Made by a program: the position numbers and the translations under genes
Part shown: one piece after another, positions 5,094 to 24,468 of the stretch
Layout of the letters: each line of letters starts with the position of its first letter
How positions within the stretch are numbered: the first letter of the stretch is position 1
Source: a bacterium
GTDB lineage: Bacteria; Chloroflexota; Dormibacteria; Aeolococcales; Bog-877
NCBI GenBank assembly: GCA_021801645.1
Contig: JAJYXT010000020.1
Coordinates: forward strand, 1-43,017
DNA length: 43,017 nucleotides
Direction of reading: 5' to 3'
Notes under the pieces: model-generated
Told to the model about the DNA's origin: nothing
Database searches by the model: none
What the model saw: only the letters and a program-made list of their open reading frames with translations

Positions 5094-8000
5094 GTGAACG
5101 AAATCGGGCTCCCTAGCCCTGCGGTGTCCCGCGATGAGCCGCGGGGTGAGGAGGCGGAGTCGGCCCTCCTCCCGTACGTCCCCAGGCTGGCCCTGGCTTG
5201 GGTCGCCGCCGGCTCAGGGGAGCTGGTCCGGGAGATGGAGGGCACCCTCGCCTTCGTCGACATTTCAGGCTTCACCAAGCTCACCGAGATGCTGGCCTCG
5301 CGCGGCAAGGCCGGTGCCGAGGAGCTGACCGGATACCTGGACCGGACCTTCGGCAGCCTGCTCGAGGTTGCCTACGCCAATTCCGGTGAGCTGGTGAAGT
5401 GGGGGGGAGACGCCGTTCTGGTGTGGTTCCCGGGGCCCCAGCACGCTCTGCGGGCGGTCGCGGCCGCCTGCCAGATGCAACGGCGTATGACGCGGCTGGG
5501 CAACCTCAGGACCTCGGCGGGGCCGTCCACCCTGCGCATGTCCGTGGGTATCAACAGCGGGCTCTTCACGTTCTTCCTGGTGGGGAGCCGACACCGCGAG
5601 CTGCTGGTGACCGGCCCGGCGGCGACGGTCACCGCTCACATGGAGGCGGTCGCGGAGGCAGGCGAGATCGTGGTGAGCGAGGCGACCGCCCGCCACCTGG
5701 ATCCCGCTGTGCTCGGAGCTGCCAAGGAGGATGGGGTCCTCATCGCCGGCCCACCCCGACTCGCGGCGTCGGCTCCAGACCCGCCGCCTGACCTCGGAGC
5801 CTACCGGCCCAGCCTCAGTCTGCCCAGTGGCCTGCGCACCCACCTCCTGGCCATTCCAGTCGAGAGCGAACACCGGCAGGTGGCGGTGGCGTTCTTGGAG
5901 TTCGGGGGGGTGGACCAGTTCCTGGCCGACAAAGGTGTGCATGAGCTGGCCCAAGAGCTGAACCGGGTGGTGTCGCTGGTCCAGGAGGTGTGCGAGGTGC
6001 ACGGCGTCACCTTCTGGGAGACCGACATAGCCGAGGATGGGGGCAAGGTCATGCTGGTTTCGGGCGCCCCCCGGGCGACCGACGATGACACGGGACGGCT
6101 GCTGGTCGCGGTCCGGGAGATCCTGAACCAGGCGGGCGGGCTGAGGCTCCGGGCAGGGGTCAATCACGGCCGGGTCTTCACCGGGGACTTTGGCCCCTCC
6201 TACCGCCGCACCTACTCCGCCAAGGGAGACGCCATCAACCTCGCCGCCCGGCTCATGGGGCGCGCTGCCCCCGGTGAGCTCCTCGCTTCCGAAGCCGCGC
6301 TGGGGCGCAGCCGGATCCGCTTCCAGAGCGAAGAGTTGGAGCCCTTCCTGGTCAAGGGGAAATCCCAGCCGGTCCACGCCCACCGGTTGGGATCCCCGGA
6401 GCGGAGCGCGGCCGCTCTGGGGACACACGGGCCGGACCTGGTGGGGCGGAACAACGAATTGCAGCTACTCGAAGAGCGCCTGGTCGCCGCGGCCAACAAA
6501 GAGGGTAGCTGCGTGGAGCTGTTGGGGCCGCCGGGAATCGGCAAGTCCCGGCTCCTCGAGGAGCTCCAGCGGCGGGCCGCGGGCGTGTCAATCCTCTCAG
6601 TTGTGTGCGACGAGTACCGGTCAATGCTCCCGTATGCGTCGATGGGGGCGTTGGGGCTCCAGGCGCTGGGGGTGGATCCCGGATCTGCGCCAGAGGCGAT
6701 CGGGCGGGCGCTGACGGAGTCGGTCCAGCAGCTGTCCCCCCGGCTGCTTCCGTGGCTGCCGCTCTTGGCCGGAGTGGTGGGAGCCGAGGTACCCCCCACC
6801 CCGGAGGTGAACGCCCTGGAGGAGCGCTTCCGCCGAGAGCGCCTCGAGGACGCCGTCCTCCAGTTCATGACCACGGTGCTGGCCGGCCCCACCCTGATCC
6901 TCTTCGACGACACCCATTGGATGGATGACGCCAGCTCCGGGCTGGTTCGGGCGGTGATCGGCTCCCTCTCCAGCCGACCTTGGTTGCTGGTCCTTTCCCG
7001 GCGACCGCAGGAGAAAGGCCTGCGCACAGATGGTCTGGCCAACGTCGTGAGCTGCGAGCTGGAGCCCCTGAGTGAGCCGGCTGTCGCTCAGCTTCTGCTC
7101 TCCGCCACCAGCCAGCAACCGCTCGCTCCGCATGAGCTCCGAACCATCTCGGAGCGCGGCGGCGGCAACCCCCTCTTCCTCCTGCAGTTGATAGAGACCG
7201 GGCGACAGTCGGGCTTCGGCACCTCTCTGCCGGACACCGTCGAGGAGGTGCTGGCGGCGCAGATCGACCGGCTATCCCCACCGGATCGGCGCCTCCTGCG
7301 GGTGGCCTCTGTCCTGGGCTTGCAGGTCTCCGTACCGGTTGTGGAGGAGATGACAGAGGAGGCGCTCGACTCGGAACGGCTGGGTGCCCTGGAGGAGTTC
7401 CTCGCCGCCGACGCCTCGGGCAACCTGCGCTTTCGGCACAACATGCTGCGCGACGCGGCCTACGAGGGGTTGCCCTACGCGCGCCGGAGGGAGCTGCACG
7501 CGAGGGCCGGAGAGGTGCTGGAACGGCGGGCCGGTGGCGATGCGGCAGAGATCGCCGGCCTGCTCGCCCTTCACTTCGGACACGCTCTGCAGCACCGACC
7601 GGCCTGGCGCTATGCCCGGCTGGCCGGTGATCAAGCTCGGACCGTGTACGCCAACTTCGAGGCGGCCACCTTCTACGACCAGGCCCTCGAAGCGGCCCGG
7701 GCCTTGGGAGACGTCGAACCCGCCGAACTGCTCCAGGTGGCAGAGTCCCTGGGAGACGCCCGGGGAAGGCTTGGGGAGTTTGCCAGCGCCGCCGAGGTCT
7801 ACCGAGCCAGCCGGCGCTGGGCCAAGGCGGGGCCGGAGAAGGCTCGGATCAACCTCAAGATTGCGCTGGCGACCGACCGCTCGGGCAACTACCGGCTCAC
7901 ACTGGGGACCCTAGCCCGAGCGGAAGGCAGCCTGGGGGACGCACAGGATCCGGAGGCCACCCGCCTGCGCGCGGAGATTCGTGCCCAGTACGGCCTGGTG

Positions 8001-8963
8001 CGTCATCGGCAGGGACGCAGCCGGGACGCGGTCCACCATCTCCTGGACGCGGTGCGGCTGGCCGACTCCGCCGGCGCCCCGGAGGTTCTGGCCACGGCCC
8101 TCGTCCACCTGGACATCGCCGAACTCACTTTGGGATTCGGGGGCGACAGCGAGCACGCCAGCCGGGCGCTGGAGATCCTGCGGCGCCTGGGCGACCAGCC
8201 CTGGCTCGAGGCTCGGGCCCTCAACCAGCTGGGCATCCGCGCCTACTTCGCCGGCAACTGGTCCAAGGCGGTGGACTTCTACACGCAATCGTGTGAAGCC
8301 TGCCGGCGCGCGGGGGATGAGTGGACCGCGGCGGTCGGAGCGGGCAACATCGCCGAGGTCCTGGCGGATCAGGGGCACCTGCAGCGAGCCGAGACGATCC
8401 TGGAGGAGGCCCTGCGCACCTATCAAGCCGCCGGCACGCCCACCTTCATCAGCTACGGGACCATGCTGCTGGGCCGGCTGGCTGCAAGACGTGGAGACAC
8501 GGAGAGGGCGCTGGACCTCCTGGGGCAGGCCCGCGCCCTCTCGGCCAGCGATGGGGAGAGCCTGCAGGTACTGCAGGCGGACGCCGCCCGAGCGGAGGCC
8601 CTGCTCCTGTCGGCGAACTTCTCGTCAGCTGTGGAGGTTGCCCAACAGGTGCTGGGCGACGCCGCGTCCGTCCAGGGAAGCGACCTTCTGGTGGCCTGGA
8701 TGGAGCGGGTGCTGGCCCTGGCGCGCGCCGGCGAGGGAGGGAATGCCACCACCGTCTCTGCCCACCTGCGGGCGTCAGTAGAGATCGCCCGCCGCCGGGG
8801 TGCCCGCTACGAGCTGGCGCTATCGCTCAACGCGCTGGCGGACCTCTGGCCCGACGCCGGGCCGGAGGTCCGCCAGGAGAGCTTGGAGCTCTTCGATCAG
8901 CTGGGGGTGGTCGAGACCGCCCGCAGCCTGGGCCGGCTCACGCCGGCCCAGGCACCTGGCTGA
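5094..8963 (+). CDS. Two-domain class III nucleotide cyclase fused to AAA ATPase and TPR array (soluble adenylyl cyclase-like)
   Basis: A 1289-residue cytosolic protein. The first cyclase domain (about 45-215) has both metal aspartates, D56 in FVDISGFT and D106 in KWGGDAVLVWF, plus K102. Its end (VTGPAATVTAHME) lacks the transition-state Asn and Arg. The second domain (about 260-410) has the opposite set. N382 and R386 are present in INLAARL, while the metal positions are E269 and K318. One composite active site at the interface is therefore likely, as in mammalian adenylyl cyclases. A signal-transduction ATPase domain follows, with Walker A GPPGIGKS at about 478 and Walker B LILFDDTHW at about 605. 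Helical TPR-like repeats run from about 830 to the end. The GTG start has no clear ribosome-binding site. Cyclic AMP is the probable product, but base specificity is not proven: an adenine-selecting Lys is not evident in domain two. Confidence 0.88.
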   Translation: MNEIGLPSPAVSRDEPRGEEAESALLPYVPRLALAWVAAGSGELVREMEGTLAFVDISGFTKLTEMLASRGKAGAEELTGYLDRTFGSLLEVAYANSGELVKWGGDAVLVWFPGPQHALRAVAAACQMQRRMTRLGNLRTSAGPSTLRMSVGINSGLFTFFLVGSRHRELLVTGPAATVTAHMEAVAEAGEIVVSEATARHLDPAVLGAAKEDGVLIAGPPRLAASAPDPPPDLGAYRPSLSLPSGLRTHLLAIPVESEHRQVAVAFLEFGGVDQFLADKGVHELAQELNRVVSLVQEVCEVHGVTFWETDIAEDGGKVMLVSGAPRATDDDTGRLLVAVREILNQAGGLRLRAGVNHGRVFTGDFGPSYRRTYSAKGDAINLAARLMGRAAPGELLASEAALGRSRIRFQSEELEPFLVKGKSQPVHAHRLGSPERSAAALGTHGPDLVGRNNELQLLEERLVAAANKEGSCVELLGPPGIGKSRLLEELQRRAAGVSILSVVCDEYRSMLPYASMGALGLQALGVDPGSAPEAIGRALTESVQQLSPRLLPWLPLLAGVVGAEVPPTPEVNALEERFRRERLEDAVLQFMTTVLAGPTLILFDDTHWMDDASSGLVRAVIGSLSSRPWLLVLSRRPQEKGLRTDGLANVVSCELEPLSEPAVAQLLLSATSQQPLAPHELRTISERGGGNPLFLLQLIETGRQSGFGTSLPDTVEEVLAAQIDRLSPPDRRLLRVASVLGLQVSVPVVEEMTEEALDSERLGALEEFLAADASGNLRFRHNMLRDAAYEGLPYARRRELHARAGEVLERRAGGDAAEIAGLLALHFGHALQHRPAWRYARLAGDQARTVYANFEAATFYDQALEAARALGDVEPAELLQVAESLGDARGRLGEFASAAEVYRASRRWAKAGPEKARINLKIALATDRSGNYRLTLGTLARAEGSLGDAQDPEATRLRAEIRAQYGLVRHRQGRSRDAVHHLLDAVRLADSAGAPEVLATALVHLDIAELTLGFGGDSEHASRALEILRRLGDQPWLEARALNQLGIRAYFAGNWSKAVDFYTQSCEACRRAGDEWTAAVGAGNIAEVLADQGHLQRAETILEEALRTYQAAGTPTFISYGTMLLGRLAARRGDTERALDLLGQARALSASDGESLQVLQADAARAEALLLSANFSSAVEVAQQVLGDAASVQGSDLLVAWMERVLALARAGEGGNATTVSAHLRASVEIARRRGARYELALSLNALADLWPDAGPEVRQESLELFDQLGVVETARSLGRLTPAQAPG

Positions 8964-10112
8964 TCACCAATACATCGGGTCGCCGCCGCCGAAGGTGTTG
9001 GTCTGGATGACCACCGTCTCGGCGCCGGAGTTCCAGGAGTAGGAGGAGATGCAAGCCTGCACCGGGAAGTACTGCGGGAAGTACTTCACGAGGAACCCGT
9101 ATATCGGGTTGCCGCAGGTGAACAGGAGCCCCTGGTAGGCGAAGGTGCTGCTCCCCCGCACTGGCAGCCAGGTCGGGAACCGCTGGTTGGCCCCGAAACA
9201 GACCGGGGTGTTGTCCTGGTCGCCGTTGAAGAAGGTGGCGGGGAAGGTAAGGGTCACCGAGCCCCCGACGTTCGAGTTGCTGGTGACCACCAGCGGATCG
9301 GCCTGCTTTGATCCGGAGACGAAGTAGTCACAGTTGAGGGAGCCGGTTCCGAATTGGGCCGTGAGCGAGTAGTCGGGGTTGGAGGTGTTCGTCGTGACGC
9401 CACCGCCGACCCCGGTGGTCCCACTCTGAACCTGGACCTGGCAGTTGCCCGAGCAGGTCACCGTCGTCGACTCAGGCGGCGTCGTGGGAGTTACGGAGAC
9501 GTCCCCGATCACCGGCCCGAATGCGCCAGCGGTGGGGTCTCCGGTGAACGTCAGGGTGGTGCTGTCAGTTGTGGCGGTAAAGGTGTAGCTGGCAGGAGTC
9601 CAGTTCATATCCTGGTGCGTTTGGCTACTGCTCACCGTAAAGGTGATGGCTGCCGGGCTATTTCCTGAAGCACCTACGGTCAGCGTCTTTGTCCCAGTAC
9701 CATTGTCAGGATTTCCGGACAGGTAGAATGAAGCGATGTAAGTCGCTCCGGCAGTCGTCTGAAAAGTCTGGGCGATCGCCCCTTGCTGGTCGCCGTTCAT
9801 GTCGATGCTCCAGGGATCACTAGCGGTAGGACCCTGCCAGTAGGTACCGATCCAGTCGACGCTGCCCTGGTTGGTTGTGTCGGCCGGCTGGGTCACTGTC
9901 CAATTGGGAATGGCGGCGGCACTGGACCCGCTCGCACTGGAATTCGCAAACAGCGTGTCGTACCCAGAGCTATTTGGCTGATAGGTGGTTGGGGAACCTG
10001 GCGAAAACGTGCCATTCGCGAAGCCGTCGGCGATCGTGGCCGCCTGCACCGGCCCCGCAATCGCCAGCGCTGCCAACATGACTGTGGCCGCAGCTAAAAG
10101 TCTTATCTTCAC
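8964..10112 (-). CDS. Secreted choice-of-anchor-C/DUF642-like protein with Cys-containing C-terminal domain
   Basis: A 382-residue exported protein. The GTG start lies ten bases after AGGAGG. A signal peptide (residues 1-24) ends in GPVQA. Residues 25-215 match the choice-of-anchor C/DUF642 pattern: NGTF near the start, IPNWTVT, SVDWIGTYWQ, SIDMNGDQQGAIAQTF, a Y-x-x-SFYLSGNP segment and KTLTVGASG. The fold is a beta-sandwich of extracellular, often carbohydrate-associated proteins. A Thr/Pro linker leads to an unrecognised domain of about 160 residues with six cysteines, an even number that suits disulfides outside the cell. There is no terminal membrane helix or sorting signal. The gene has visibly lower GC than its neighbours and opens with rare codons (ATA, AGA, CTT, TTA), suggesting acquisition or strong expression constraints. 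Its stop abuts that of the cyclase gene with no gap. Confidence 0.75.
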   Translation of the reverse strand: MKIRLLAAATVMLAALAIAGPVQAATIADGFANGTFSPGSPTTYQPNSSGYDTLFANSSASGSSAAAIPNWTVTQPADTTNQGSVDWIGTYWQGPTASDPWSIDMNGDQQGAIAQTFQTTAGATYIASFYLSGNPDNGTGTKTLTVGASGNSPAAITFTVSSSQTHQDMNWTPASYTFTATTDSTTLTFTGDPTAGAFGPVIGDVSVTPTTPPESTTVTCSGNCQVQVQSGTTGVGGGVTTNTSNPDYSLTAQFGTGSLNCDYFVSGSKQADPLVVTSNSNVGGSVTLTFPATFFNGDQDNTPVCFGANQRFPTWLPVRGSSTFAYQGLLFTCGNPIYGFLVKYFPQYFPVQACISSYSWNSGAETVVIQTNTFGGGDPMYW

Positions 10113-11695: not shown

Positions 11696-14329
11696 GTGGC
11701 GGTGGACCTGGGGTCCCTGGCCGGGGTCACCGCCCGGCTGCTGGCGGCGGCGGGAGCCTGCTGGCTGGGGTTCTCATGGGTGGCCACCTACCGCCGTGGC
11801 CGGCCCCAGATCGAGGAGGACCTGGTCTCCGCGGCCGCCCTCACCGCACTGGTGGCTGGGCTCGCCTCTCCGCTGTACTCGGTGGGAGTCCTGGGGATGG
11901 GGGCGACCCTCAGGTCCCTGTATTCCCGCCCCCGGGGAGCGGCGTGGGTCGCCGCGTACTTCCTCGGCCCCTACCTGGGCGGCGTGGCGCTGGACGGCGG
12001 CGCCCGATCGCTGTCGGATGTCGGGACCACGCTCCTTTTGGGGCTCTCGGGGGTTGGCATCGGGGTATTGGTGGGGCAGCTCCTGCGAAGCGCCGCCGAC
12101 CGCCACCAGCGGGTGCTGGACCTGGCCCAGGAGCTGCGTCGGGCGGGCGAGGTCCTGGCCGGGGCGGTCAACCCTGGCCTGATCGAGCTGGCGCTGCTCC
12201 GTTCCGCGCAATCTGTGGTCGCGGACCTGGCGCGGGCGCAACTTGTGCTGGTGCGGCTGGTGGGGGCAGCCATCACCGTCTCCCGCCCTCTGCGGGTAGG
12301 CGAGGAACCCGGCGGAGCCCGTGCCGTGGCTCCCAGTTCGCTGCCGGACCCGGCCCTCCGCTACCTGCTGGGGGCCGGGGGGGCAGCGCCGCCAGGCTCG
12401 TGGGCGGCGATCCACGAGTTTCTGGGCGTGAGTGCGCAGCTGGACCAGGTGACCGTGGCCCCGCTCGGCCCGCCCGGGGAGTCCCGGGGCTCACTGGTCC
12501 TGGCGTCGGCGGGTCCACCTCCACCGGAGCTGATCGACTCTTTGAGGGTCCTCAGCGCCCAGGCGGGGCTGGCGCTCTCGCGGGCGGAGCTGTCGCTCAC
12601 CATCCGCCAGAGTGAGGCCCGCTTCCGCGGACTGGTGCAGAACTCCACCGACCTGGTCATCGCGGTGGACCGGGCTAGCGAGGTCACCTACGTCAGTCCC
12701 TCGGTTGAGAAGTTCTTAGGCCGCCGCCTGCGCTCGGGCCGGCTGGACACCCCATCGGACACGGTCCACCCCCAGGACATGGCCCGGGTGCTAGCGGCTC
12801 TCGAGGGCGCCGCTGCCGCCAGCGGCTCCTCGGCACTGCCCGAGTTGCGGGTCCGCTCCAAGGAGGGGGGTTGGCGGGTTCTCGAGCTTCAGGCCACCAA
12901 CCTCCTGGCGGACTCCGGGGTCGGGGCACTGGTGATCACGGGTAGGGACATCACCGAACGGCGGGCACTGGAGGACCAGCTCCGCCACCAAGCCCTCCAT
13001 GACCCGCTCACCGGGCTAGCCAACCGGGTGCTGCTGCGCGACCGCATCGACCACGCCCTCCACGCGCGCCGGCGCCGTCTCCCCCTGGCCCTGCTGATGA
13101 TCGACCTCGACAACTTCAAGAACATCAACGACAGCTTCGGCCACGCCGCGGGGGACTCGGCTCTGCTGGAGGTGACGCGTCTCGTGGGCGCCTGCCTCCG
13201 TCCCGGGGACACCTTCGCCCGCCTGGGGGGAGACGAGTTCGCGATCCTCCTTGAGGAGGTGGCGGCCGAGGAGGCGGAGAAGGTGGCGGAGCGGATCACC
13301 GACAGCCTGCGACGGCCGGTGCGACTTCCCAACTGGGAGGAGGTGGCCGTGACCGCCAGCATCGGGCTGGTCACCTGCGAGGTGGCCACCGACCCCGAGG
13401 TGCTCCTGCGCAACGCGGACATCGCCCTCTACGCGGCCAAATCGGAGGGGAAGGGGGGCCACGTGGTCTTCCAGGACTTCCTCCATCAACGCGCCGTCCA
13501 CCGGATGCACGTCGAGAACGGCCTCCGTCGGGCCCTGGAGCGCGACGAGTTGGTACTCCACTACCAACCCATCGTGCGGGGCTCCATGAGCGACATGGTG
13601 GGGGTGGAGGCTCTCCTGCGCTGGCGGGATCCCGAACAGGGTCTGGTGATGCCCCAGGAGTTCGTGGCCATCGCCGAGTCCACCGGGCTCATAGTCCCGC
13701 TGGGGCGGTGGGTGCTGAGCCAGGCCTGCCACCAGGTCCGGGCCTGGCAGCGGTCCACGCCAGCCGCCCGGGAGTTGACGCTGGCGGTCAACTTCTCCCC
13801 CCGGCAGCTCCAGGAGGAGGAGATCATCGCCCACGTCGAGTCTGCACTTGAGACCTCGGGCCTGGCCGCCTCAGCGCTGGTCCTCGAGGTCACCGAGAGC
13901 GCCATCGCCAGCAACCCCGGAGAGGCCATCGAGCGGCTGGCCCAGCTCCGCCGGCTCGGCGTCCGGGTGGCCATCGACGACTTCGGCACCGGCCAGTCGT
14001 CGCTGGCCCAGCTCCAGCTGCTGCCGGTGGACTGCATCAAGATCGACCAGTCCTTCGTCCGCCGGTTGAGCGATGACCCCACAGCCGCCGCCTTCATTCA
14101 GAGCATGGTGGACCTCGCCCTCGCCCTGCGCCTGGAGGTGGTGATCGAAGGGGTCGAGTCGGCGCGCCAGGCAAAGGTCCTCCGCTCCATGCTCCCCCAG
14201 GCGAAGTTCCAGGGTCACCACTTCGCCCCGGCGTTAGGCCCCGAAGAGCTGGGAAAACTACTCGACAGCCGGCGTGGGGGGCGACGGCCCCGAACGGCTA
14301 GGCGCCCGGTGGCGCACCTGCCCGGTTGA
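11696..14329 (+). CDS. Membrane-bound GAF-PAS-GGDEF-EAL protein (c-di-GMP synthesis and breakdown)
   Basis: An 877-residue protein from the first ordinary start, a GTG. Hydrophobic helices occupy about residues 1-130. A GAF-like sensory region (about 165-300) and a PAS domain (about 306-425) follow. The GGDEF motif (511-515) is intact, with the product-inhibition site RPGD five residues before it, so diguanylate cyclase activity is expected. The EAL domain keeps E638-A-L, NFSPRQLQ, AIDDFGTG and VIEGVES, so phosphodiesterase activity is also expected. It probably adjusts c-di-GMP in response to a signal sensed by GAF/PAS or membrane parts. The frame stays open to 11450, and the codons just before the GTG encode the first half of a transmembrane helix. 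The true start is therefore probably upstream. Confidence 0.92.
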   Translation: MAVDLGSLAGVTARLLAAAGACWLGFSWVATYRRGRPQIEEDLVSAAALTALVAGLASPLYSVGVLGMGATLRSLYSRPRGAAWVAAYFLGPYLGGVALDGGARSLSDVGTTLLLGLSGVGIGVLVGQLLRSAADRHQRVLDLAQELRRAGEVLAGAVNPGLIELALLRSAQSVVADLARAQLVLVRLVGAAITVSRPLRVGEEPGGARAVAPSSLPDPALRYLLGAGGAAPPGSWAAIHEFLGVSAQLDQVTVAPLGPPGESRGSLVLASAGPPPPELIDSLRVLSAQAGLALSRAELSLTIRQSEARFRGLVQNSTDLVIAVDRASEVTYVSPSVEKFLGRRLRSGRLDTPSDTVHPQDMARVLAALEGAAAASGSSALPELRVRSKEGGWRVLELQATNLLADSGVGALVITGRDITERRALEDQLRHQALHDPLTGLANRVLLRDRIDHALHARRRRLPLALLMIDLDNFKNINDSFGHAAGDSALLEVTRLVGACLRPGDTFARLGGDEFAILLEEVAAEEAEKVAERITDSLRRPVRLPNWEEVAVTASIGLVTCEVATDPEVLLRNADIALYAAKSEGKGGHVVFQDFLHQRAVHRMHVENGLRRALERDELVLHYQPIVRGSMSDMVGVEALLRWRDPEQGLVMPQEFVAIAESTGLIVPLGRWVLSQACHQVRAWQRSTPAARELTLAVNFSPRQLQEEEIIAHVESALETSGLAASALVLEVTESAIASNPGEAIERLAQLRRLGVRVAIDDFGTGQSSLAQLQLLPVDCIKIDQSFVRRLSDDPTAAAFIQSMVDLALALRLEVVIEGVESARQAKVLRSMLPQAKFQGHHFAPALGPEELGKLLDSRRGGRRPRTARRPVAHLPG

Positions 14330-18212: not shown

Positions 18213-19214
18213 TCACCACGGGCCCCGGTCCTGCGAATTGGCCAGGCGGAGCGCCTCAACATAGGTTGAGCGTAGCTCAGCCGGGTGAACGGAGGTGGAG
18301 ACCCCTGTGCGGATCTCTGGCAGGTGCTCCAGGCCGTGCGCTTCCATCCAGCCGATCAGCCCATCCAGCAGAGACCTGGCGTGGTCCGGTCCGTGCCGCA
18401 GCAGGGCCGAGGTGGTCATCACGGCGTCGGCCCCCACCAGCAGATAGCGGATCAGGTCTTGCGAGGAGTCCACCCCGGAGCTCCCCGCCAGGGAGGCCCT
18501 CACCCTTCCCCTGAGCAGCGAGATCCAGAGCCGCGGAAGGCGACCATCCATCGGAGTGGAGAGCCCGATCCCGGGGAGCGCCCGTCCGGTCTCCGGGTCG
18601 ATCTCGGGCTGCAGCCAGCGGTTGAAGAGGATCAGCCCGTCGGCACCAGCGCGGTCCAGACGGGTCGCCATCTCCCCGAGGGAGCTAAAGTAGGGCACGA
18701 GCTTGACCGCCACCGGGACCCGGGCTGCCGCCCTGGCGGACTGAACCGCTTCCAGGAGCCGGGTCTCCACCTCCGCCGAGGTCATCTCAAGATCCGCCGG
18801 CAGCTGATAGAAATTGAGCTCGATGGCCGCGGCTCCTGCCTCCCCCATGGAGCGGGCCAGCCCGGCCCATCCCTCGGGGGTCGCCGCGTTGAGGCTGGCC
18901 AGCACCGGTATCTCCACCGCCCCGGCCGCCCTCTCTATCAACCTCAAGTAGGCCTCCGGGGAGGAGGCCGGAGCGGTAGTCTCGGGGAAGTAGGAGAGCG
19001 ACTCCGGGAAGACGTCCGCCCCCTGGTCGAGCAGCATCCCCTCACGGCGCTCAGCCTCCAGGATGTCCTCCTCGAAGAGCGACGGGAGCACCACCGCCCC
19101 GACACCGGCCTCCGCCAGGCGGCGCACGCCCGCCACGGTGCGGGAGAGCGGCGAGGGCGAGGCGATGAGGGGATTGCGCAGGCTGAGCCCGAGGTAGGGT
19201 GCAGTGAGGTCCAT
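18213..19214 (-). CDS. Dihydroorotate dehydrogenase-like flavoprotein
   Basis: A 333-residue FMN-type TIM barrel. It starts with DLTAPYLGLSLRNPLIASPSPL, the opening of PyrD/PreA-type proteins, and keeps the phosphate-binding tail region (AGSSGVDSSQDLIRYLLVGADAVMTTSAL, read in shorter pieces). The substrate segment of true dihydroorotate dehydrogenases (N-x-SCPN) is here IELNFYQLPADLEM. The usual Cys and Asn of that motif are gone, so pyrimidine synthesis is unlikely. No Fe-S motif is fused. The ATG overlaps the stop of the PFOR gene by one base (TGATG), so it is co-translated with it. The family is known to occur beside PFOR genes; its reaction is not known to me. Confidence 0.85.
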   Translation of the reverse strand: MDLTAPYLGLSLRNPLIASPSPLSRTVAGVRRLAEAGVGAVVLPSLFEEDILEAERREGMLLDQGADVFPESLSYFPETTAPASSPEAYLRLIERAAGAVEIPVLASLNAATPEGWAGLARSMGEAGAAAIELNFYQLPADLEMTSAEVETRLLEAVQSARAAARVPVAVKLVPYFSSLGEMATRLDRAGADGLILFNRWLQPEIDPETGRALPGIGLSTPMDGRLPRLWISLLRGRVRASLAGSSGVDSSQDLIRYLLVGADAVMTTSALLRHGPDHARSLLDGLIGWMEAHGLEHLPEIRTGVSTSVHPAELRSTYVEALRLANSQDRGPW

Positions 19215-22200
19215 CAGCTGGAGCGCCGGGCGTCGGCGGCAAACGCCGCGGCGGGCCGGGAGGCCATCTCCTCATAGGTGGCCCAGCGCCGTGCCACCGC
19301 ATCCGCCCCCAGACGGGCCAGCCTCTCCGCCTCCTCCGGGTCAGTCCGGGAGAGCGAGGAATAGCGGATCTCCCGTCCGGTGTACTCGGGAAGGGGCAGC
19401 CGGGGGCGTGGGGAATCGAGGAGGAACGGGTTGCCTCCCTCGCGGCGCACCACCGGGTCGTAGCGCAGAAGGGGCCAGTATCCGCTGGCGACCGCCCGGT
19501 ACTGCTGGTCAAGCCCCTTCTGCATGTCGATGCCGTGGGCGATGCAGTGGCTGTAGGCGATGATCAGGGAGGTCCCGTCGTACGCCTCCGCCTCCCGGAA
19601 GGCCCGGAGGGTCTGCTCCGGGTCGGCGCCCATGGCCACCCGGGCGACGTAGACGTTGCCATAGGCGATCGCCTGCAGAGCCAGGTCCTTCTTCTCAGCG
19701 GTCTTGCCGGCGGCGGCGAACTTGGCCACCGCCCCCAGGGGAGTGGCCTTGGACATCTGCCCCCCGGTGTTGGAGTAGACCTCCGTGTCCAGGACCAGGA
19801 TGTTGACATTTCGGCCGCTGGCCAGGACGTGGTCCAGCCCCCCGAAACCGATGTCGTAGGCCCAGCCGTCTCCCCCCACGATCCAAACGCTGCGCCGGAC
19901 CAGATGGTCCAGAACGCTGCCCAGGTCCTGAGCCGCCGCGCCCTCGACCTGGGCCAGCCTCTGGCGGAGCACCTCCACCCTCTCTCGCTGGGCGGCGAAC
20001 TGCGACTCGGTTCGCTGGGGGGCGCTCAGGACCTCGTCGACCAGCTCCTGGCCCAACTGCGGGCTCAGCTCGGAGAGCCGGCGGCGGGCCAGCTCCAGCT
20101 GGCGGTCCGCGGCGAGCCGCAGCCCGAGGCCAAACTCGGCATTGTCCTCGAACAGCGAGTTGGACCAGGCAGGGCCGCGCCCGTGGGCGTCCTTGGTCCA
20201 GGGGGTGGTGGGCAGGTTTCCACCGTAGATAGAAGAGCACCCGGTGGCGTTGGCCACCACCAACCGATCTCCGAAGAGCTGAGTGAGTAGCTTGAGGTAC
20301 GGCGTCTCGCCGCAGCCGGCGCAGGCTCCGGAGAACTCAAAGAGGGGCTCCAGGAACTGGGCCCCACGGACGGTGCCGAAGTCCACCCGGGAGCGGTCGG
20401 GCACGGGCAGGGACTCGAAGAAAGAGATGCTCGCCCGCTCGCGCTCCAGGATGGGCGAGATCTCCTCCAGGTTGATGGCTCGCCGCGCCGGATCATGAGG
20501 GTCGGCGACCGGGCAGGCCTCGAAGCAGAGGGCACACCCGGTGCAGTCCTCCGGGTACACCTGCAGGGTGTAGGTGGTATCCGGCAAGCCCTTGGCGTTG
20601 AGCGCTCGGGACTTGAAGCCGGAGGGCGCCTCGGCCAGTTGGGCCGCTGGGTAGAACTTGGAGCGGATCACGCTGTGGGGGCAGACGAAGCTGCAGTTCC
20701 CGCACTGGATGCAGAGCTCAGGGTCCCAGCTGGCGACCAGCTCTGAGACCCGGGGCTTCTCGTACACCGCGGTCCCAGAGGGCCACGTTCCATCGGGCGG
20801 CAGGGCCCCCACCGGGACCTCGTCACCGTGACCCGCCATCAGCCGGGCGGTCACCTCTCGGACGAACCTCGGGGCGCTCTCGGGCACGGGAGGGATGAGC
20901 TGGCGCTCTGAGGTGACGGAGGTCGGAACCACCACCCGCTCCATCCTCTCCAGGGCGGCGTCCACCGCCCTCAGGTTGGCCTTCACGGTCCGGGAACCGC
21001 GCCGCCCGTATGTCTTCTCGATCGCCTCCTTGATGCGGGCGACAGCGACCTCCCGCTCCAACACCCCGGAGATGGCGAAGTAGCAGGCCTGGAGAACGGT
21101 GTTGACCCGGCCACCCAAACCCAGGTCCCGGGCGATGGCGCCGGCGTCGATCACCCAGAAGTTGATCTCCTTGTGGAGGATCTGCTCCTGGACCGGGCGG
21201 GGCAGCTGGTCCCAGACCTCGGCCGCCGGATAGGGGGTGTTGAGCAGGAAGGTCGCCCCCCTGGCCGCCGTGGCCAGCACATCGACCCTCTCCAGCAGTG
21301 AGGGGTGGTGGCAGCCCACGAAGCCCGCCTCCCGGATCAGGTAGGGCGCCCGGATGGGCTCGGTGCCAAACCTCAGGTGGGAAACGGTCTGGGAGCCGGA
21401 CTTCTTGGAGTCGTAGACGAAATATCCCTGGGCGTGCAGCCCCCCTTCCGTGCCCAGGATCTTGATGGTGTTCTTGTTGGCACCCACCGTCCCGTCCGAA
21501 CCGAGTCCGTAAAAGAGGGCCCGGGACGTACCCGAGGGCTCCACCTGGAAGTCGGGGTCGTAGTCGACACTGCTGTGAGAGACGTCGTCCTGAATCCCCA
21601 CCGTGAGGCGGCGTCGGGGAGAAGGGGAGCGAAGCTCCCGGAACACCCCTTGCACCATCCCCGGGGTGAATTCCTTGGACGCCAGCCCGTAGCGGCACCC
21701 GACCACCATGGGGAGGCTCGGGCGCGCCCTCCTGGTATGGGCCTCGGCGAGCGCCGTGCTCACGTCCAAGAACAGCGGCTCACCCTGGGAGCCCGGCTCC
21801 TTGGTGCGGTCGAGCACGGCGACCCTGGAGGCGGTCTCAGGGATGGCCTGGAGCAGCTCGGCTTCAGGGAAGGGGCGGTAGAGATGCACTGTCACCACCC
21901 CGACCCGCTCCCCGCGGGCCACCAGCGACTTCACCGTCTCCTCGGCGGTCTGGGCGCCGGACCCCATGGCGACCAGGACCTGCTCGGCCTCCGGGTGTCC
22001 CGAGTACTCCACCAGGTGATAGCTGCGCCCGCTGATCTGGGCCAGCTGGTCCATCGCCTCCTGGACCAGCTGCGGGGTGCGGGCCAGGAACGGCGAGCTG
22101 GCCTCACGGGCCTGGAAGGCCACGTCCGGGTTGTGGGAGGTGCCCCGGATCACCGGGTGCTCTGGGGTGAGCCCCCGCCCGCGGTGTTCCAGGATCAGCT

Positions 22201-22786
22201 CCAGGGGCACCAGCCGGCGCAGCTCCTCGTCAGAGAGGAGCTCCACCGTGTTGAGCTCGTGGGAGGTGCGGAAGCCGTCGAAGAAATGGATGAAGGGGAC
22301 TCTGGCCCTCAGGGTGGCCAGCTCGGCCACGGCGGCCAGGTCGTGGGCCTCCTGCACCGAGGAGGAGGAGAGGAGGGCAAACCCGGTCTGACGCGCGGCC
22401 ATCACGTCGGAGTGGTCGCCGAAGATCGACAGGGCCTGCCCGGCGATCGCCCGGGCTGCCACGTGGATGACCGTGGAGGTGAGTTCGCCGGCGATCTTGT
22501 AGAGGTCGGGGATCATGAGCAGCAGCCCTTGGGAGGCGGTGAACGTCGTGGCCATGGCGCCGCCCTGCAGCGCTCCGTGCAACGCCCCCGCCGCGCCCCC
22601 CTCGCTCTGCATCTCCACCACGGCCGGGACACTGCCGTAGACGTTGGGTCGGCGCTGGCTGGCCCACTCGTCCGCCAGCTCGGCCATGGGAGAGGCGGGG
22701 GTGATCGGATAGATGCAGCAGACCTCGTTGAGACGGTAGGCGGTGGACACGGCCGCCTCGTTGCCGTCGACTATGGCCCTCGTCAT
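19214..22786 (-). CDS. nifJ: Pyruvate:ferredoxin (flavodoxin) oxidoreductase, single-chain
   Basis: A 1190-residue protein, the usual length of homodimeric PFOR. It catalyses pyruvate + CoA + oxidised ferredoxin to acetyl-CoA + CO2 + reduced ferredoxin, reversibly, in the cytoplasm. Visible parts in order are the N-terminal pyruvate-binding CCIYPITPASPMAELADEW (residues 23-41), then the gamma domain. Two [4Fe-4S] motifs follow at about 690-760, CIQCGNCSFVCP and CTGCALCFEACP. The proximal-cluster cysteines lie in ACAGCGE, with a third in NATGCSSIYGG. The thiamine-diphosphate motif is GDGWAYDIGFGGLDHVLASG with VYSNTGGQMSKATP. The fourth cluster cysteine is in AYSHCIAHGIDM. The start at 22786 makes an ATGA overlap with the GltD-like gene. 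The frame is open another 51 codons upstream, but that is inside the GltD-like gene. Confidence 0.96.
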   Translation of the reverse strand: MTRAIVDGNEAAVSTAYRLNEVCCIYPITPASPMAELADEWASQRRPNVYGSVPAVVEMQSEGGAAGALHGALQGGAMATTFTASQGLLLMIPDLYKIAGELTSTVIHVAARAIAGQALSIFGDHSDVMAARQTGFALLSSSSVQEAHDLAAVAELATLRARVPFIHFFDGFRTSHELNTVELLSDEELRRLVPLELILEHRGRGLTPEHPVIRGTSHNPDVAFQAREASSPFLARTPQLVQEAMDQLAQISGRSYHLVEYSGHPEAEQVLVAMGSGAQTAEETVKSLVARGERVGVVTVHLYRPFPEAELLQAIPETASRVAVLDRTKEPGSQGEPLFLDVSTALAEAHTRRARPSLPMVVGCRYGLASKEFTPGMVQGVFRELRSPSPRRRLTVGIQDDVSHSSVDYDPDFQVEPSGTSRALFYGLGSDGTVGANKNTIKILGTEGGLHAQGYFVYDSKKSGSQTVSHLRFGTEPIRAPYLIREAGFVGCHHPSLLERVDVLATAARGATFLLNTPYPAAEVWDQLPRPVQEQILHKEINFWVIDAGAIARDLGLGGRVNTVLQACYFAISGVLEREVAVARIKEAIEKTYGRRGSRTVKANLRAVDAALERMERVVVPTSVTSERQLIPPVPESAPRFVREVTARLMAGHGDEVPVGALPPDGTWPSGTAVYEKPRVSELVASWDPELCIQCGNCSFVCPHSVIRSKFYPAAQLAEAPSGFKSRALNAKGLPDTTYTLQVYPEDCTGCALCFEACPVADPHDPARRAINLEEISPILERERASISFFESLPVPDRSRVDFGTVRGAQFLEPLFEFSGACAGCGETPYLKLLTQLFGDRLVVANATGCSSIYGGNLPTTPWTKDAHGRGPAWSNSLFEDNAEFGLGLRLAADRQLELARRRLSELSPQLGQELVDEVLSAPQRTESQFAAQRERVEVLRQRLAQVEGAAAQDLGSVLDHLVRRSVWIVGGDGWAYDIGFGGLDHVLASGRNVNILVLDTEVYSNTGGQMSKATPLGAVAKFAAAGKTAEKKDLALQAIAYGNVYVARVAMGADPEQTLRAFREAEAYDGTSLIIAYSHCIAHGIDMQKGLDQQYRAVASGYWPLLRYDPVVRREGGNPFLLDSPRPRLPLPEYTGREIRYSSLSRTDPEEAERLARLGADAVARRWATYEEMASRPAAAFAADARRSS

Positions 22787-24468
22787 GCTGGCTCCGGCAC
22801 CATCTCGATGGCATGCACCGGGCACTGCTCGAAGCAGCTGCCACACCCAGTGCAGCGGTCGTAGTCGAAGCGGTAGCGGAGACCCTCGCCCAGCTTGATG
22901 ACCGCGTCCTCCGGGCAAGAGCCCAGGCAGCCATCGCACTCGAAGCAGTTGCCGCAGGAGAGGCAGCGGCCGGCCTCGAACTCAGCCGCCGCCGGCGTGA
23001 GCCCCCCGACCACCTCGTCGAAGCCGGCCACCCGCGACTGTACGGGCAGGACGGGCTGCTGGCGCTGGTGGGCATCGCCGAAGTACCAGAGGTGGAGTCC
23101 TGCGAAGGCCGCCTCAGGGTGCTTGGCCGGGGGCGAATCAACCCGTCCAGAGAGCCAGGCGTCGATGTTGCGCGCCGCCTTCTTGCCATGGCCGACCCCC
23201 ACGGTCACGGTCCGCTCGGCGGGGACCATGTCCCCGCCGGCGAAGACACCGGGGCAGCCGGTCATCATGGCGGGGGAGACCCGGACGGTGCCGTCCTTCC
23301 CCACCTCGACCCCGGGTACCCGGCGAAGGAAGTCGGTGTCGCTGTCCTGACCGAGGGCAAGGATGACGGTGTCGGCCGCCAGCTCCTGATAGCGGCCGGT
23401 GGGCTGGGGAAACCCCTTTTCGTCCAGCTCCATCTCCTCCACCTTGAGGGTCGGCCCGTCGAACGCCTTGATGGTCCGCAGCCAGTTGATGCGTACCCCC
23501 TCGCGCTCGGCGTCCTCAGCCTCCTCCTCGTGGGCGGGCATCTGGGCCCTCGTGCGGCGGTACACGATCAGCGCCTCATCCGCGCCCAGCCGCCGGGCGG
23601 TTCGGGCAGCGTCCATGGCGGTGTTGCCCCCGCCGTACACGGCCACCCTCCTGCCGATCAGGGGCCGCTCGCCCGACGCCACGCTTCGCAGGAAGGAGAT
23701 GGCGTCCACGATGCGGCCCGCGTCCTGGGCGGGGATGTCCACCCGCTTGGAGAGGTGCGCTCCCACGGCGACGAACACCGCGTCAAAGCCCCCCTCACGA
23801 CGCTCGGCCTCCAGGTCCTGGACGCGGTGGCCGGTCGTGATCCTCACCCCCAATCGACGGATCCTCTCCACCTCGCCGTCCAGGACCTCTCGCGGCAGCC
23901 GGTAGGAGGGGATCCCGTACCGCATCATCCCTCCGGGCTGATCTCCGGCATCCCGGATCTCCACCTCGTGACCGCGAAGTGCCAGGTGGTAGGCGGCCGA
24001 GAGCCCGCTGGGCCCGGAGCCGACCACCAGCACGCGCTTACCCGAAGGGGCGGCGGCGGGCGCGAACTGCCATCCCCGCTCCAGGGCCAGGTCCCCGAGA
24101 TATCGCTCAACAGCGTGGATGGAGACGGCGTCGTCCAGCTCCGCCCGGTTGCAGACGCTCTCACAGGGGTGGTAGCAGACCCGTCCGTGGACCGCAGGGA
24201 GCGGGTTCTCCGCCACCAGAATCCGCCAGGCCCGCTCGGACCGCCCGGCCGCCTGCTCCGCCAGCCAGGCCTGGATATTCTCCCCAGCCGGGCACCCGGC
24301 GTTGCAGGGCGGAAGCAGGTCGACGTAGACCGGGCGCCGGGTTCGCACCGGGCCCGCCATGACCGCGCCGTGCGCCAGGTCGGGGACCCGCGTCAGGTCC
24401 TCCCCGGCACCGCCCGGACGCTGCGGGCCGACCCGGTCCGGAGCCCCGCCCTCGATCGAAGTTGCCAT
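22783..24468 (-). CDS. GltD/PreT-like FAD-NAD(P) oxidoreductase with N- and C-terminal Fe-S motifs
   Basis: A 561-residue soluble oxidoreductase. An N-terminal Fe-S domain (Fer4_20 type) shows CNAGCPAGENIQAWL at about 55 and CYHPCESVCNR at about 98. FAD binds at GSGPSGLSAAYHL (about 150) and NAD(P) at VYGGGNTAMDAAR (about 280). The tail has two further ferredoxin-like motifs, CLSCGNCFECDGCLGSCP and CTGCGSCFEQCP (about 500-550). It can thus pass electrons between NAD(P)H and ferredoxin-type carriers. Placed first in an operon with overlapping PFOR, it probably exchanges electrons with PFOR's ferredoxin. The ATG at 24468 follows a GGGGGG run. A -10-like TACGAT lies at 24493-24498 on the minus strand. 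A later ATG 37 codons in is an alternative start. Confidence 0.9.
   Translation of the reverse strand: MATSIEGGAPDRVGPQRPGGAGEDLTRVPDLAHGAVMAGPVRTRRPVYVDLLPPCNAGCPAGENIQAWLAEQAAGRSERAWRILVAENPLPAVHGRVCYHPCESVCNRAELDDAVSIHAVERYLGDLALERGWQFAPAAAPSGKRVLVVGSGPSGLSAAYHLALRGHEVEIRDAGDQPGGMMRYGIPSYRLPREVLDGEVERIRRLGVRITTGHRVQDLEAERREGGFDAVFVAVGAHLSKRVDIPAQDAGRIVDAISFLRSVASGERPLIGRRVAVYGGGNTAMDAARTARRLGADEALIVYRRTRAQMPAHEEEAEDAEREGVRINWLRTIKAFDGPTLKVEEMELDEKGFPQPTGRYQELAADTVILALGQDSDTDFLRRVPGVEVGKDGTVRVSPAMMTGCPGVFAGGDMVPAERTVTVGVGHGKKAARNIDAWLSGRVDSPPAKHPEAAFAGLHLWYFGDAHQRQQPVLPVQSRVAGFDEVVGGLTPAAAEFEAGRCLSCGNCFECDGCLGSCPEDAVIKLGEGLRYRFDYDRCTGCGSCFEQCPVHAIEMVPEPA

Follow-up and report, generated by a model that had tools for sequence, protein, structure and literature searches.

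A probable sAC-type split nucleotidyl cyclase of Dormibacterota with an altered base pocket and, among its relatives, recurrent cNMP-domain neighbours

The gene at positions 5094-8963 of the window, that is, the whole stretch of 43,017 nt analysed here, encodes a genuine member of an already known type of bacterial protein, the relatives of human soluble adenylyl cyclase (sAC, ADCY10), in which two class III cyclase domains (C1 and C2) are followed by a STAND ATPase and TPR repeats. What is new is the altered specificity pocket of this protein and the link of its family to effectors with cNMP-binding domains. The best explanation, to which we assign a probability of roughly 0.7, is a STAND/TPR-gated pseudo-heterodimeric nucleotidyl cyclase, the cyclic mononucleotide of which would act on cNMP-domain effectors.

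Gene, domains and orthologues

The open reading frame is intact, begins with GTG and encodes 1289 aa. Pfam assigns two Guanylate_cyc domains (E 2e-24), AAA_16 (2e-18) and TPR_12 in five stretches, and both Pfam and the structural models described below give a chain of two cyclase domains, a STAND NTPase and TPR repeats, the architecture of bacterial sAC-like proteins. The main features, by window position, are:

5094..8963, + strand: sAC-type cyclase gene, C1-C2-STAND ATPase-TPR, 1289 aa (open reading frame, Pfam, orthologues)
5235..5711, + strand: cyclase domain C1, aa 48-206, with metal Asp56/Asp106 and Lys102 and without the transition-state Asn/Arg (T178/H182 there)
5865..6383, + strand: cyclase domain C2, aa 258-430, with N382/R386 kept and E269/K318 at the metal positions
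6429..7463, + strand: STAND-type P-loop NTPase (AAA_16), about aa 446-790, Walker A at aa 478-485 and Walker B at aa 601-606
7476..8930, + strand: TPR superhelix, about aa 795-1279, a putative ligand sensor (Pfam, fold and profile matches)
8964..10112, - strand: gene for a secreted DUF642 protein (Pfam), convergent with the cyclase gene and a recurrent neighbour of the cyclase clade

The window comes from a draft genome (2.1 Mb, 100 contigs), and its nearest relatives with names are metagenome-assembled genomes. Of the seven other genomes sampled from the genus, six have a complete orthologue (84-94% identity) and one has an orthologue split over two contigs (70% and 81% identity). A sister genus has one orthologue, in one genome (62% identity), and a further cyclase orthologue with 70% identity is labelled Candidatus Dormiibacterota. 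Assignment to the NCBIfam TOMM kinase/cyclase family was rejected, the score of 174 bits being far below the cut-off of 706. The same genome encodes a second class III cyclase (contig C1, L123:2291-5911, - strand) with a single cyclase domain; it displays a zinc-ribbon-like N-terminus and the usual metal Asp and base Lys, followed by ATPase-like and repeat regions.

Several surrounding genes were recorded as well. A PAS-GGDEF-EAL protein is encoded 2.7 kb downstream of the cyclase (11696-14329, + strand) and is syntenic in the genus, and positions 19214-24468 (- strand) hold a pyruvate:ferredoxin oxidoreductase-like gene next to one for an oxidoreductase of the pyridine-nucleotide/ferredoxin type. 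The DUF642 gene diverges much faster within the genus (41-92% identity) than its neighbours. DUF642 homologues hold the place directly downstream of the cyclase in three actinobacterial loci (L042, L044 and L046) in which other synteny is lost.

One predicted split active site

Residues were numbered against ADCY10, with the spacing checked on the 4oya chain, and the functional roles of the ADCY10 residues were taken from PMC12867704 (Table 1). D47, K95, D99 and K144 of ADCY10 correspond to D56, K102, D106 and S150 of the window cyclase, R176, K334, N412 and R416 to A181, E309, N382 and R386, and T405, which contacts adenine in ADCY10 (PMC12250328), to S375. The residues that matter most are:

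5259..5261, + strand: Asp56, metal ligand (ADCY10 D47), Asp in 80/80 relatives
5397..5399, + strand: Lys102 (ADCY10 K95, bicarbonate contact), Lys in 77/80 relatives
5409..5411, + strand: Asp106, metal ligand (ADCY10 D99), Asp in 80/80 relatives
5541..5543, + strand: Ser150, pyrophosphate-binding position (ADCY10 K144), Ser in 79/81 members of the clade
6018..6020, + strand: Glu309, base-selecting position (ADCY10 K334), Glu in 22/80 relatives and Lys in Chloroflexus-type proteins
6045..6047, + strand: Lys318, second C2 metal position, Lys/Arg in 80/80 relatives
6216..6218, + strand: Ser375, second base position (ADCY10 T405), placed by alignment and numbering
6237..6251, + strand: Asn382 and Arg386, transition-state pair (ADCY10 N412/R416), kept in 77/79 and 79/79 relatives

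As in sAC, C1 supplies both metal aspartates and C2 the Asn/Arg pair. The earlier note, made from the sequence alone, had numbered the key residues (D56, D106 and K102 in C1; E269, K318, N382 and R386 in C2) correctly throughout, and its ADCY10-like domain order is borne out by Pfam, the profile match and the predicted folds.

When a profile of the core was built with 78 relatives, the best match in the PDB was ADCY10, over both domains and in the same order (E 9e-38), a likeness far beyond chance at the sequence level. The AlphaFold model of aa 21-445 has a pLDDT of 93.3 and a pTM of 0.91, and in a Foldseek search of the PDB with this model human sAC accounts for each of the 24 best matches, which span C1 and C2 with a TM of about 0.8 at 18-20% identity. 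Superposition on 8cnh covers both domains (TM 0.81/0.76, rmsd 3.3 A), so the head-to-tail pairing of C1 and C2, on which the earlier note had staked its proposal, is reproduced in the predicted core. The hybrid active site that it had proposed within one chain is supported, at the level of prediction, by this model together with the complementary residues, and a single split site formed by C1 and C2 is well supported by the modelling. A search of a viral fold library gave matches to single domains only. To see whether C2 of the Glu309 clade ranks closer to guanylyl or to adenylyl cyclases, it was compared with the PDB; the best matches were single-domain mycobacterial-type adenylate cyclases, with the alignment gapped at the key site, and are uninformative on this point.

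The window cyclase thus shares with ADCY10 (PDB 4CLF and others) the C1-C2-STAND order, the metal Asp in C1, Asn/Arg in C2, the Lys95 equivalent and the fold of the whole core. It differs in its low identity (18-20%) and in four substitutions, K334 to E309, T405 to S375, K144 to S150 and R176 to A181.

Conservation across relatives

We compared two sets, the 80 closest loci from named genomes and 43 proteins that are more distantly related and come from a sample of the phylum. D56 and D106 are kept in all 80 and 43 wherever that part of the protein is present. N382 and R386 are near-invariant, with one exception among the 43 distant proteins, a His in place of N382. Such conservation of metal and transition-state residues argues for retained catalysis. 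Two loci (L075 and L087) display Glu309 with Ala at Asn382 and His at 150 and are possibly degenerate members.

The complementary losses in C1 and C2 are present in all of the approximately 120 relatives collected, including Chloroflexus-type proteins, and the same architecture occurs in 85 of the 301 genomes sampled from the phylum. Given this distribution, neither the sAC layout nor the complementary losses pointed out in the earlier note are special to the window cyclase; the losses are common to the bacterial protein type and probably ancestral to it. Kobayashi, Buck and Levin (cited in PMC3085406) reportedly described sAC-like cyclases of Chloroflexus with the C1-C2-STAND-TPR layout in 2004. 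Those proteins have the same layout and complementary losses and are approximately 30-35% identical to the window cyclase over most of the chain, but they retain Lys309, Thr375 and Arg150 (window numbering) and form a separate clade.

The base pocket

The base-selecting pair is E309/S375 in the window cyclase versus Lys334/Thr405 in ADCY10, the pair associated with ATP specificity, and the pyrophosphate-binding Lys144 of ADCY10 is replaced by S150. The earlier note mentions neither of these changes, nor the neighbouring cNMP-binding proteins described below. In class III guanylyl cyclases, Glu replaces Lys, and C, S, T, H, A or G replaces Asp (PMC4215837); the E309/S375 pair conforms to this pattern, although position 309 varies in relatives. 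A pseudo-heterodimeric cyclase with a Glu/Ala pair provides a further example (PMC6592433). Every member of the window genus and of its 14-row clade (SH-aLRT 100) has Glu309, and residue 375 is Ser there except in L047 (Thr). Ala or Gly predominates at 309 across the broader Actinomycetota/Dormibacterota clade (79 rows, SH-aLRT 100), and the nearest clades likewise have mostly Ala/Gly at 309, with Thr at 375. Chloroflexus-type proteins have Lys at 309 and Thr at 375. Ser150 has replaced the basic Lys/Arg in 79 of 81 members of the Actinomycetota/Dormibacterota clade, whereas the Chloroflexus-type relatives sampled nearly always have Arg, Lys or His at position 150.

Given E309/S375 and S150, the label 'adenylyl' should not be assumed for the window cyclase. 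At the same time, the drift to Ala/Gly at 309 in neighbouring clades keeps ATP among the plausible substrates. Judged by these residues, GTP and ATP are about equally likely, and with S150 and, in most relatives, Ala/Gly at 309, the pocket is standard for neither. E309 covaries with K377 (Fisher p 9e-9) and with S375 (3e-5); we make no claim of coupling, because the tree has one well-supported independent pair (five when all branches are counted).

Neighbouring cNMP-binding proteins

In 16 of 80 related loci the cyclase has, within 3 kb, a gene for a protein with a cNMP-binding domain, versus approximately 0.8 expected from the density in 30 host genomes (241 cNMP-binding proteins in 104.5 Mb). 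Close kin among the 16 (e.g. L042/L046, L105/L111 and L077/L088) bring the effective count nearer a dozen, and the excess stands after allowing for them. The Pfam-confirmed fusion partners of the cNMP domain are MFS, patatin, glutaminase, histidine-kinase ATPase, SulP (SulP-STAS) and ABC. In L105, L109, L088, L077 and L059 the cNMP-domain gene immediately precedes the cyclase in the same orientation, and in L061 it lies 115 bases downstream. These recurrent neighbours, transporters and lipases among them, are candidate receptors for the cyclase product.

Individual loci illustrate the variety of these fusions. MFS transporters with a C-terminal cNMP-binding domain are encoded at L042:7706-9445, L046:5317-7056 and L120:2419-4146, in the first two cases after the cyclase and a DUF642-like gene. 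The gene that immediately precedes the cyclase of L109, in the same orientation, encodes a glutaminase-cNMP-domain fusion (L109:8118-9893).

The 43,017-nt window itself contains no cNMP-binding gene. Its genome encodes three cNMP-binding proteins, one of which is an MFS fusion on contig C97; in the window genus the MFS-cNMP gene lies on another contig than the cyclase. It is widespread in the family, including four genomes in which the cyclase was not found (G004, G006, G007 and G009), and is thus not strictly linked to the cyclase there.

A comparable pairing of cyclase and effector is the Xanthomonas XC_0250/XC_0249 cGMP pathway, in which a class III cyclase with TPR repeats is encoded beside an effector with a cNMP-binding domain (PMC3770947). 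We liken the two by description, and the Xanthomonas effector differs in being a cNMP-GGDEF protein.

Regulation

ADCY10 senses bicarbonate through Lys95 and Arg176 together; the window cyclase has K102 and, in place of the Arg, A181. These two residue states had been read correctly in the earlier note, and its suggestion that the enzyme is perhaps not bicarbonate-regulated is weak either way: almost all of the sampled bacterial relatives have a neutral residue at 181, and loss of the Arg is therefore uninformative by itself. Metazoan sACs with the K/neutral combination are pH-regulated and insensitive to bicarbonate (PMC12867704), but bicarbonate regulation has been reported for bacterial sAC-like enzymes (PMC3085406).

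The model of the C-terminal 854 residues has a pLDDT of 90.4. Its top fold match is the STAND-TPR protein 6mfv, and MalT, the maltose-system regulator, and a plant NLR are also matched; profile matches are to AfsR, PH0952 and MalT. A STAND domain is also predicted in full-length human sAC (sACfl), and specific activity is approximately 3-fold higher in the truncated enzyme (PMC12802110). By analogy with MalT-like STAND proteins and with full-length ADCY10, whose C-terminal half is inhibitory, this part of the protein may place the cyclase core under ligand-gated control.

Proposed mechanism and alternatives

We infer catalysis, substrate, gating and effector pairing from sequence, predicted fold, conservation and gene neighbourhood. 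On our preferred explanation, the protein would be a nucleotidyl cyclase of class III and of the bacterial sAC type, located in the cytosol and gated by a signal. Within a single chain, C1 and C2 would pair head to tail and so create one catalytic site, with D56 and D106 holding two metal ions and N382 and R386 stabilizing the transition state. The second pseudo-site, which has K102 and K318 and lacks Asn/Arg, would be non-catalytic and is likely a regulatory pocket. The STAND ATPase and TPR superhelix would detect a ligand or an interaction partner and switch the core accordingly, and the product would be a 3',5'-cyclic mononucleotide read by effectors with cNMP-binding domains. In the window genome, the most likely effector is the MFS transporter with a cNMP domain on contig C97.

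The weightiest alternative concerns the product. The protein could be an ordinary ATP-using sAC-like adenylyl cyclase that makes cAMP, with the changes at 309, 375 and 150 representing tolerated drift, and we regard this as a serious contender, not far short of an even chance. Its closest solved relative is an adenylyl cyclase, the Ala/Gly and Thr of the nearest clades indicate a pocket that drifts and bears no clear guanine signature, and swaps of the base pair often lower activity instead of converting specificity (PMC4215837). However, E309 and S375 are fixed in the orthologues of the genus and in its strongly supported clade, save for the one Thr375, and a carboxylate at 309 is the guanylyl-cyclase state and disfavours adenine. 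The corresponding proposal, that in a Dormibacterota/actinobacterial lineage the sAC-type split enzyme became a guanylyl cyclase, gated by STAND/TPR and signalling to cNMP-domain transporters and lipases, is tentative, and we would put the odds against it.

Two further explanations dispense with a conventional cyclase. Loss across the clade of two ADCY10 substrate-binding residues (S150 and position 309) could mean that the cyclase pair is degenerate, binding nucleotide without turnover and serving the STAND-TPR module as a nucleotide sensor or scaffold; PDB entry 6yii is, by its title, a class III cyclase-like protein that binds ATP. Yet both metal aspartates and the Asn/Arg pair are near-invariant, and a dead enzyme would leave the recurrent cNMP-receptor genes beside the family unexplained, which makes this improbable. 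An anti-phage Pycsar-type pyrimidine cyclase is suggested by matches to the PADLOC PycC profiles (best E 3e-12), but these are weak and cover one cyclase domain at a time. Moreover, the neighbours in the window and in relatives are metabolic or are transporter/lipase cNMP-domain genes, with no Pycsar effectors seen among them, and the cyclase gene is syntenic across the genus, unlike defence islands. We consider a Pycsar role very unlikely indeed.

Implications

A Dictyostelium soluble guanylyl cyclase was reportedly described by Roelofs in 2001 (cited in PMC6592433). It is sAC-like, with two cyclase domains, one site and GTP as substrate, and, likened by description, offers a precedent for a switch of specificity, although it is eukaryotic. 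What is known of the sAC scaffold concerns mainly adenylyl cyclase activity and bicarbonate sensing, and cGMP signalling in bacteria is rare and poorly understood. If the guanylyl proposal is true, the window lineage would have a bacterial cGMP pathway built on the sAC scaffold, parallel to that Dictyostelium enzyme. The clade also offers a natural series, with Lys, Ala/Gly or Glu at a single residue, in which to follow the evolution of substrate choice at a split active site.
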